A DNA stretch of 36,768 nt. Origin: Thermoproteaceae archaeon. Its GTDB lineage: Archaea; Thermoproteota; Thermoprotei; Thermoproteales; Thermoproteaceae. This document shows positions 6,742-36,114 of the stretch, piece after piece (the stretch's first letter is position 1; each line of letters begins with the position of its first letter). The stretch spans positions 1 through 36,768 of the forward strand of contig JAJHRB010000006.1 of assembly GCA_020833025.1 (NCBI GenBank). The letters run 5' to 3'. The position numbers were made by a program, and so were the translations under genes. Under the pieces are notes generated by a model. It saw nothing but the letters and a program-made list of their open reading frames with translations. It ran no database searches and was not told the origin of the DNA.

Positions 6742-8037
6742 TCACGGGCCCAATGCCATCCTGACCCTCCTGGCCACGTCCATGTCCGCGCTCGCCGCAA
6801 CCCTCCTAATGTAGGCCACGTACTCCGAGATCTGGCGCGAGCTGAATGACGCTATCACGTGCGCGTACCAGAGCCACGTGTTGTAGTGAACCGGGTCTCT
6901 GTACTGCTGGGCCAGAATGCCCGCAACATCGCCCACCCCGGCCGTGAGGCAGAATGCCTTCGCGGGAGTCCCGTCGAACATCCGGGACCCGTAGGCCGGC
7001 ACCTCGACCAGTAGCGGCGTGTCGCTGTCGTTGAGCTTGATGTAGAGAAGGTAAAGCTTTGGTACTGCCTCGAGCGCCTCTCGTAGCGCCTCCGCCATAC
7101 CGGCAGCGCCGTCCCCCTGCGGCCTAAATACCGCCGAGTCCCTGAGCCTCTCCGCCGCGGCCTCGGAGAGCCTCTCCGCCGCCGTCAAGCCCCTGTAATT
7201 TAGATGCGCGTCGCAACACCCTAGGAGCATGGGCGCGGTGTAGCTGCCCGCCGGGAGCAGTCTGGCGAGCAGCTCTGAGTCTGTTATTGACTGGGAGAGC
7301 AGTAATGACACGAGCCTGGCGCTCTCGCGATCTAGCGACTGGGCCGCCTTGTAGAAATCTATCAACTCCCTTCTGTACTTGCGCAGCCAGAGCACTGAGT
7401 ACCAGAGGAGCCCTCTAGCGAAAACCCCGTCGCGGTACTTCTCGCTCAGCTTCTCAAATATTGCGTGCTCCTTGAGCAGCCTGAGACTCGAGTCCTTGGA
7501 GACAAAGACCAGCCTGACTCCGCGTCTCTGCGCGCTCGTGAGGAGCCTTGAGAGACTAAGCAGCGCCCTTGCGAGCTCCGGGGCGTGGTAGAGGCTCTGG
7601 AATTCCCGCGAGATTGCCAGGCTGCGCACGAGCTTGGTGACTCTGACGTAAAGCGAGCCGTCCGCCAGCAGCACCTTAATGTCGTGCTTCTCGATTGCCT
7701 TCAGCCCCGCGAGCGACTCCACCGTTATGAGATACGCCCACAGCAGCGGCGGAGAGTCCGCTATTGCTATGTCAACTAGGAACTCCCTCTCGATAAAGTC
7801 AGGCCCCACGGCAGCGGCTCTGGCCAGTACGACGTGGTGCCCGTTTGAGAGCTTGACTGTTACCGCGCCGCCGTCAACGCCGGCAGTCTCGGGACTCTCG
7901 CGCGGCGCTCTCACGCCGAGCGCAGGCAGCCTGCCAGCCAGCATCTCGATTGGGTACTCCTGCTCGAGACTGCTGGCTAAGTACTTGCGCAGCTTCCTAC
8001 TCACCTGCGACATGAACTCGTCGAAGAAATAGTCCAC
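6742..8037 (-). CDS. nurA: NurA 5'-3' nuclease
   Basis: Nuclease that works inside the HerA motor to make 3' single-stranded tails. The RNase H-like domain is marked by AGVDGGAVTVKL (the DGS/DGG acidic motif) and the later ADGSLYVR strand, followed by AHVIASFSSRQ near the C-terminus. The 431-residue length is at the long end for NurA. The GTG start at 8035-8037 has a strong TATA box about 26 nt upstream. This is the first gene of the nurA-herA-mre11-rad50 operon, and position supports identity: herA starts 4 nt after its stop. NurA proteins diverge strongly in sequence, so context carries part of the assignment. Confidence 0.88.
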   Translation of the reverse strand: MDYFFDEFMSQVSRKLRKYLASSLEQEYPIEMLAGRLPALGVRAPRESPETAGVDGGAVTVKLSNGHHVVLARAAAVGPDFIEREFLVDIAIADSPPLLWAYLITVESLAGLKAIEKHDIKVLLADGSLYVRVTKLVRSLAISREFQSLYHAPELARALLSLSRLLTSAQRRGVRLVFVSKDSSLRLLKEHAIFEKLSEKYRDGVFARGLLWYSVLWLRKYRRELIDFYKAAQSLDRESARLVSLLLSQSITDSELLARLLPAGSYTAPMLLGCCDAHLNYRGLTAAERLSEAAAERLRDSAVFRPQGDGAAGMAEALREALEAVPKLYLLYIKLNDSDTPLLVEVPAYGSRMFDGTPAKAFCLTAGVGDVAGILAQQYRDPVHYNTWLWYAHVIASFSSRQISEYVAYIRRVAASADMDVARRVRMALGP

Positions 8038-14604: not shown

Positions 14605-14717
14605 GGGCCCGTAGTCTAGCCTGGTAGGATGCGCGGTTGTACACTACCGTGTACCGCAGTGGGTCCGCGTGATCCCGGGAGGGTACCCCGGGACTTCAAA
14701 TCCCGGCGGGCCCACCA
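14605..14717 (+). tRNA. tRNA-Pro(UGG) with two introns
   Basis: Acceptor GGGCCCG pairs with CGGGCCC, then A73 and encoded CCA. D arm GTCT-AGCCTGGTA-GGAT. Anticodon stem CGCGG/CCGCG. Removing 14639-14659 (21 nt) gives the loop TTTGGGT, anticodon UGG. This cut is favoured over readings as Tyr, His or Pro(GGG) because it alone gives a perfect bulge-helix-bulge: helix GCGG:CCGC, bulges TT^G and AG^T, inner hairpin TACAC-TACC-GTGTA. A second intron, 14680-14694 (15 nt), lies between T stem and T loop (53/54) with helix CCCG:CGGG and bulges GG^A and AC^T. The mature T arm is CCGGG-TTCAAAT-CCCGG. Confidence 0.88.
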
Positions 14718-14722
14718 TTATC

Positions 14723-19255: not shown

Positions 19256-19341
19256 TGGTGGGCCCGGGGGGATTTGAACCCCCGACGTCCGCCCGCGCAG
19301 CGGCCTACGGGTCTGGAGCCACGACGCCCCGCGGCAGGCCC
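19256..19341 (-). tRNA. tRNA-Trp(CCA)-like gene with aberrant 5' half
   Basis: The 3' half is a normal tRNA: loop CTCCAGA (anticodon CCA), stem strand CCCGT, variable loop AGGTC, T arm GGGGG-TTCAAAT-CCCCC, acceptor CGGGCCC, A73 and encoded CCA. To get this, an 18-nt intron at 19287-19304 (position 45/46) is removed. It forms a perfect bulge-helix-bulge: CCGT:GCGG, bulges AG^G and AC^G, inner CCGC-TGC-GCGG. The first seven nt, GGGCCTG, pair with the acceptor 3' strand. But only 16 nt separate them from the anticodon loop, with no U8, A14, GG18-19 or D arm. Either this is a decayed or fused copy, the 3' half of a split tRNA, or a highly reduced tRNA. A TATA box lies about 27 nt upstream. Confidence 0.6.
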
Positions 19342-19363
19342 GCTTCTTTTCATTTGCTGCTGC

Positions 19364-35814: not shown

Positions 35815-35958
35815 GGGGCCGTAGTCTAGCCTGGCCAGGATAATGGGAGCGGCCGTCGCTCCCATCGTGAGGCCGGCCTGGGGCCGAGCCCCGTCGCTGG
35901 ATCGCCGGTGATCCCGGGTTCGGGGAGAGCCCGCCCAGAAATCCCGGCGGCCCCACCA
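35815..35958 (+). tRNA. tRNA-Pro(GGG) with three introns
   Basis: Acceptor GGGGCCG/CGGCCCC, A73 and encoded CCA. D arm GTCT-AGCCTGGCCA-GGAT. After intron removal the anticodon arm is CCGGC-CTGGGGC-GCCGG (anticodon GGG, 35880-35882) and the T arm is CCGGG-TTCAAAT-CCCGG. Introns: 35842-35871 (30 nt, position 25/26, long inner hairpin ATGGGAGCG/CGCTCCCAT, bulges AT^A and AG^G); 35884-35902 (19 nt, canonical 37/38, helix CTGG:CTGG with two G-U pairs, bulges GG^C and AT^C); 35922-35938 (17 nt, T loop 56/57, bulges TC^G and AG^A). The last resembles the T-loop intron of tRNA-Val. Confidence 0.9.
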
Positions 35959-36114
35959 GCGTGCTCTTGCTCCGGAGGCGTCGCGAGGCGGGGGTCTTGA
36001 AACGCGGCAGCACAGGAATGGGCCTCCGCAGCTTTGCTCGCACTCGTTAGGCTGCGCGCTGTGAGTGCTATCGAGCAGTTCTGGCGCGCCTGTTAGAAGG
36101 CCCTCTCAGCCGCG

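Follow-up and report, generated by a model that had tools for sequence, protein, structure and literature searches.

In 2014, 29 trans-spliced tRNA genes covering 12 anticodons were known from seven archaeal genomes (PMC4033280). In an earlier survey, Chan et al. (2011) found a split tRNA in none of five Pyrobaculum species, gave six as the maximum per genome, and described genomes rich in split tRNAs as having few introns (PMC3218864). It has long been debated whether such genes are remnants of an ancient state in two pieces or were derived recently from genes with introns. Trp appears in none of the lists of split tRNAs consulted, and neither a later split tRNA from Pyrobaculum nor a split tRNA-Trp was found in the open-access literature to 2026 (subscription papers and preprints were outside the search). 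Described here is the locus at 19341–19256 on the minus strand of a 36.8-kb contig (C28; the window, that is, the whole stretch of DNA analyzed) from an archaeal metagenome-assembled genome (MAG; G000, 1.56 Mb in 126 contigs, completeness 93.9%, contamination 0%), which is almost certainly, as judged from its sequence, the 3' half of a trans-spliced split tRNA-Trp(CCA). This heat-loving archaeon is assigned to the genus Pyrobaculum, since one of the genus-mates compared is Pyrobaculum sp. WP30, whose genome is closed.

The 3' half and its leader

All elements of the 3' half lie on the minus strand of the window. A leader at 19344–19320 precedes the exon; its segment 19339–19326 pairs with the trailer of the 5' half described below, and 19344–19340 contributes five more pairs past a one-base bulge. 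Exon 2a (19319–19305), delimited by alignment to intact Pyrobaculum tRNA-Trp, comprises G31, the loop CTCCAGA with the anticodon CCA at 19316–19314, the 3' strand of the anticodon stem, and the start of the variable loop. It is followed by an 18-nt cis intron at position 45/46 (19304–19287), which folds as a bulge-helix-bulge (BHB); introns at this site are also found in other tRNAs of the MAG and in the tRNA-Trp genes of three relatives (G001, G005, and G009). Exon 2b (19286–19256), identified by ARAGORN on the joined product, contains the remaining part of the variable loop, the T arm, the 3' strand of the acceptor, and the encoded CCA.

An earlier note on this DNA had described the gene as complete from the anticodon loop onward once the intron is removed, and as devoid of a D arm on its 5' side, and the sequence reads exactly so on both counts. 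The strand GGGCCTG (19341–19335), which that note took to be acceptor-like, belongs instead to the leader, the true partner of the acceptor being GGGCCCG of the 5' half. The additional suggestion that the leader pairs with the acceptor probably reflects a coincidence of composition, the real partner of the leader being the trailer of the 5' half. The 9-nt stretch GCGTCGTGG, which had been singled out as too short for a normal intron, is indeed present, and its identity is corrected here to the end of the leader plus exon nucleotide G31. When applied to the locus, ARAGORN returns exactly 19256–19341 (minus strand) as a 'tRNA-???' with a four-base anticodon, and in the Rfam scan of the genome the tRNA model matches only 19259–19314, at 21 bits, below the cut-off. 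A permuted tRNA, with the 5' half located 3' of the CCA, was rejected because neither acceptor nor D-arm sequence is present beyond 19256.

The 5' half and its pairing with the leader

The genome-wide search for a 5' half ending in the complement of the leader, proposed in the earlier note, was successful. A pattern in which an acceptor strand able to pair with CGGGCCC is followed by U8 and a D arm locates the 5' half of tRNA-Trp at 7391–7340 on the minus strand of contig C46, with the exon GGGCCCGTAGCTCAGCCAGGCAGAGCGGCGG and, on the trailer side, AGCCCCGCGGCAGGC (AGCCCCGCGGCAGGCGCCGCT). Over 14 nt, the trailer GCCCCGCGGCAGGC matches the reverse complement of leader positions 19339–19326 (GCCTGCCGCGGGGC) exactly, and the pairing extends to 19 pairs if a one-base bulge is allowed. 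Beyond this trailer and the DNA of the leader itself, the 435 kb of genome sequence searched (overlaps included) contain no 13- or 14-mer complement of the leader. This is also the sole Trp-type 5' end in the genome, the two other matches within two mismatches being Lys 5' halves. The Trp 3' part is likewise unique by a pattern search that would miss a copy with an interruption in the anticodon loop itself, and the search for another tRNA-Trp, also suggested in the earlier note, thus found no further Trp 5' or 3' part in the MAG.

The duplex of leader and trailer has a calculated energy of −47.7 kcal/mol, compared to −30.7 ± 3.9 kcal/mol for 2000 shuffled trailers (minimum −48.8). Because leader and trailer are both very GC-rich, this comparison by itself is not overwhelming; it is the exactness, the register, and the uniqueness of the match that carry the argument for pairing. 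Among the 11 five-prime halves identified in the genome, the one at C46 forms the best duplex with the Trp 3' half (−58.9 kcal/mol, versus −40.3 or weaker for the other ten), and a two-strand fold of the halves yields a cloverleaf plus the duplex at −97 kcal/mol. Both halves are internal to their contigs, of 30.6 and 36.8 kb, and are encoded as separate genes.

Splice junction and joined product

The junction can be read base by base from the two sequences. The strand of the 5' half consists of GAG (nucleotides 22–24), CGGC (25–28), and GG^A, followed by the inner helix, whereas that of the 3' half (19325–19316) consists, after the inner helix, of GTCG (19325–19322), TG^G (19321–19319), and CTC (19318–19316). 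Together they form a canonical BHB (helix, 3-nt bulge, 4-bp helix, 3-nt bulge, helix) that places the junction at 30/31, with the splice point in the window between 19320 and 19319. A literal minimum-energy structure from Vienna, with single-base bulges at the junction, was rejected in favor of the canonical 3-nt bulges, because the latter fit the 30/31 cis introns of tRNA-Lys in G004 (L193), of the MAG's own tRNA-Arg(GCG) and tRNA-Arg(UCG) (L046 and L052), and of tRNA-Trp in G007 (L187), all of which share the same geometry. Once the cis intron is removed, the joined exons are recognized by ARAGORN as a 77-nt tRNA-Trp(cca), and an alignment of this product with the intact tRNA-Trp of G002 and G004 shows near-identity, with differences at a few positions.

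Promoters, splicing enzyme, and proposed pathway

Promoters were scored with a position weight matrix trained on 28 intact Pyrobaculum tRNA genes, with the positions of the window as background. The 3' half is preceded by a TFB-responsive element (BRE)/TATA promoter, AAAGCATAAAATTG (19376–19363, minus strand), with a score of 13.7, like those of intact tRNA genes, in agreement with the intact promoter noted earlier. It lies 35 nt upstream of 19341, the mean spacing in intact genes being 34 nt, and the 3' half is therefore predicted to start where the pairing part of the leader begins. The promoter of the 5' half, AAAGCTTTTATTCC, is found 34 nt upstream, and the scores at the promoters of both Trp halves are reached by 0.3% of the window positions.

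The catalytic subunit of the splicing endonuclease EndA is encoded in the same genome (C61:40360). Its closest relative of known structure is chain B of 2ZYZ, the Pyrobaculum aerophilum heterotetramer, an EndA of the type with broad BHB specificity. A pathway can accordingly be outlined in conditional terms. The 3'-half gene would be transcribed from its own promoter as a GC-rich leader of ~22–25 nt plus exon 2, and the 5'-half gene (C46:7391–7340, minus strand) would be transcribed separately, carrying the complementary trailer at its end. The two RNAs would anneal via the 14 contiguous pairs (19 with the one-base bulge), bringing the ends at G30 and G31 into the canonical BHB; EndA would cleave both strands of that BHB as well as the cis intron at 45/46, and tRNA ligase would join the exons into the tRNA-Trp of the cell. 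Transcription, cleavage, ligation, and essential use of the halves are inferred.

Relatives and the origin of the split

Nine of the ten other genomes of the genus encode tRNA-Trp as a single uninterrupted stretch or with cis introns only, in one continuous gene, and eight of these (G001–G006, G009, and G010) have no intron at 30/31. The ninth, G007, carries a cis intron at this site. The tenth genome (G008) is that of Pyrobaculum sp. WP30, matching CP012158.1 with 100% identity over 3 kb and with the same coordinates. In this closed genome the exons of tRNA-Trp are separated by 940 nt at the 30/31 site (CP012158.1, about 1555300–1556310, minus strand; L087/L185), and flanking sequence identifies the split locus as the locus of the cis intron in G007. 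A trailer and then a run of T follow the 5' half, each half has its own promoter (score 19.7 for the 3' half), and the predicted exon junction reads ...GCGG/GCTCCAGA... The WP30 leader is complementary to the WP30 trailer (duplex at −37.3 kcal/mol), the sequence of this pair being unrelated to that of the pair in the MAG; cross-pairings with the strands of the latter give −23.4 and −30.1 kcal/mol. The longest reading frame of the insert between the halves has no Pfam match, and the insert has no homologue in the loci compared. A split tRNA from WP30 was not found in the open-access literature searched.

Each half of the dispersed gene retains an ancestral neighbor. The acyl-CoA synthetase genes that adjoin the 3' half (16.9–19.2 kb of the window) also adjoin the intact tRNA-Trp of G004 and G009, and the similarity of that flank to the window stops at 19320, exactly at the splice point. 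On the other side, an element resembling a C/D-box small RNA (Rfam sR14, below threshold) precedes the 5' half by ~1.2 kb; with the same orientation, such an element precedes tRNA-Trp by ~1 kb in G004 and G009, and in G002 it lies within 60 nt of tRNA-Trp (in the four Pyrobaculum genomes: L040:2744–2894, L182:2580–2716, L183:452–504, and L184:1627–1680). The most likely origin of the split is the disruption of a 30/31 cis intron by DNA rearrangement, and the simplest history is a chromosomal rearrangement inside that intron, with one ancestral flank kept by each half. The relatives form a probable evolutionary series from the intact gene to the cis intron at 30/31 (G007), the adjacent split (WP30), and the dispersed halves (G000). 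The split tRNA-Trp loci of the MAG and of WP30 are different, the tree of EndA gives no order, and the position of the MAG among its relatives is not resolved by that tree.

Alternative explanations

Both halves, their complementarity, the BHB geometry, the promoters, the product, the synteny, and the parallel in WP30 are present in the sequence. Several points weigh against a trans-spliced tRNA-Trp nevertheless. The expression and splicing of its halves are predictions from sequence; one of the four pairs in the central helix of its BHB is G-U; the structural partner subunit of EndA was not located in a search confined to Pfam PF01974; and the part missing from the 93.9% complete MAG could hold an intact tRNA-Trp. 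An intact gene for the CCA anticodon was not found in the MAG, and by the same patterns the closed WP30 genome has a split copy only.

The locus might be a decayed copy of tRNA-Trp, an option raised in the earlier note, its 5' part having been lost and an intact gene functioning elsewhere. The D arm is indeed absent at the locus, about 6% of the genome is missing from the MAG, and shortened pieces of tRNA do exist in it (e.g., the Ser fragments at C12:11322 and C17:79); yet no damage is seen at any exon position, in the BHB of the cis intron, at the CCA end, or in the promoter, and there is a 5' half that matches and has a complementary trailer. The pattern searches found no other Trp part in the genome and, in WP30, a split copy only. 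Decay is very improbable. A genuine tRNA-Trp with no D arm, or a reduced one, made from 19341–19256 alone, as also considered earlier, is harder still to credit. Even though GGGCCTG is able to pair with CGGGCCC, and ARAGORN takes the stretch as an odd tRNA, the tRNAs of this type in the review literature are mitochondrial (PMC4033280), the supposed acceptor strand is explained by its pairing with the C46 trailer, and a full D arm, which in the MAG comes from the 5' half, is present in all relatives with an intact gene. Hardly any probability can likewise be given to one long gene with a cis intron whose two pieces were parted by the assembly only. The WP30 halves, 940 nt apart on the same strand, could in principle be read through, but those of the MAG are far from the ends of their contigs (30.6 and 36.8 kb), hence separated by no less than about 25 kb, and continuous protein-coding genes flank both. 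Of the options in the earlier note, a split, trans-spliced tRNA of which this locus is the 3' half with its leader is the one supported, by a single 5' half, a complementary trailer, and a perfect joined tRNA-Trp.

Other predicted split tRNAs in the genome

Pattern searches for T arms lacking a D arm and for D arms lacking a T arm, which give a lower bound, identified 11 five-prime and 13 three-prime halves. These are assigned to 13 split tRNAs: Trp, Arg(UCU), Lys(CUU), Lys(UUU), Asn(GUU), Leu(UAG), Leu(CAG), Leu(GAG), Leu(CAA), Gln(UUG), Gln(CUG), CAU (Met/Ile), and Thr(GGU). The junction was read base by base for Trp only, the other assignments being based on pairing, promoter, and product. 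Each of the 13 joined sequences is recognized as a standard tRNA, and for 12 of the 13 three-prime halves the assigned 5' half forms the best duplex of the 11, with a margin of only 1 kcal/mol for Lys(CUU); the exception is CAU, whose trailer was shortened in the duplex comparison. Two Leu 5' halves, both with promoters weak by the matrix, apparently serve four Leu 3' halves. The junctions are located at 30/31, at 29/30, and at sites in or next to the D arm, and several of the split tRNAs carry further cis introns, including introns in the T loop. A reading of two 3' halves as Pro was rejected, since ARAGORN identifies their joined sequences as Gln(UUG) and Gln(CUG).

The halves of the at least 12 further split tRNAs are found on contigs C13, C14, C19, C20, C31, C34, C74, C81, C89, C100, and C102 (loci L090, L250, L256, L093, L202, L038/L096, L099, L108, L218/L248, L049/L110, L053/L231/L232/L111/L114/L115, L224, and L028). 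One 5' half, that of Gln(UUG), lies in the window itself (AGCCCGGTCGTCTAGCGGCCAAG, 34809–34787, minus strand, with a trailer to about 34760); it has a promoter, AAAGCATAAAAGGG, and the 3' half on C19 (L093, G000:C19:698) has a leader to which its trailer is complementary (AGCCGCCCAGACCG).

The Lys(UUU) halves (L049/L110, G000:C81, about 449–660) diverge from a promoter region that is a perfect inverted repeat, CTTTTAAGCTTTTCTCCTGGCTGGCGCGCGCCAGCCAGGAGAAAAGCTTAAAAG. The halves of Lys(CUU) (L038/L096, C31) and Thr(GGU) (L218/L248, C74) are in tandem, about 0.2–0.3 kb apart with a second promoter between them, and resemble adjacent split genes. The tRNA set of the MAG is very intron-rich. Three multi-intron tRNA genes in the window, at 14605–14720 (plus strand), 14513–14385 (minus strand), and 35815–35960 (plus strand), are missed by ARAGORN and at the Rfam gathering threshold. 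Shortened 3' fragments of tRNA-Ser near contig ends (L089, G000:C12:11375; L091, G000:C17:83) look like attachment-site remnants of integrated elements.

Split tRNAs as such are known; their genome-wide extent here is unprecedented, the at least 13 predicted in this MAG appearing to be about twice the number reported for any organism. The genome departs from all three statements of Chan et al. (2011), on the lack of splits in Pyrobaculum, the maximum of six, and the few introns of split-rich genomes. A single isotype within one genus displays the intact, cis-intron, adjacent-split, and dispersed-split states. Very probably, this lineage trans-splices at least 13 tRNAs, with Leu 5' halves shared, and its genus retains the steps from the intact gene through the cis intron and the adjacent split to the dispersed one, so that the splits would be late products of intron-containing genes. 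In practical terms, standard tRNA finders applied to archaeal MAGs will list such essential tRNAs as missing or as pseudogenes.

Comparison with known systems

The closest described counterparts are the split tRNA-Lys(CUU) genes of Staphylothermus marinus, S. hellenicus, and Nanoarchaeum equitans, which, like the tRNA-Trp described here, are joined at 30/31, with halves under their own promoters, a GC-rich complementary leader and trailer, and a canonical hBHBh' motif (PMC3218864). The present case differs in isotype (Trp) and genus (Pyrobaculum), in the dispersal of its halves, and in the extra cis intron at 45/46 in the 3' half. Caldivirga maquilingensis, with its split and tri-split tRNAs, also belongs to the Thermoproteales and shares the presence of several splits per genome and the combinatorial use of halves (PMC4033280, PMC4390854). 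In that organism six tRNAs are concerned, of the Gly, Ala, and Glu types, whereas at least 13 are predicted in the MAG, in which splits of those isotypes were not seen and the tRNA set is rich in introns. The tRNA-Trp of WP30 resembles the known adjacent split tRNA that is joined at 37/38, in that the halves are close together on one strand with an internal promoter; it differs in being joined at 30/31 and in that the cis intron persists in a close relative, G007. Finally, the tRNA-Trp genes of other Pyrobaculum genomes have a nearly identical mature sequence, several of them with the intron at 45/46, but are continuous and, in the eight genomes listed above, free of the 30/31 intron at which the gene of the MAG is split.
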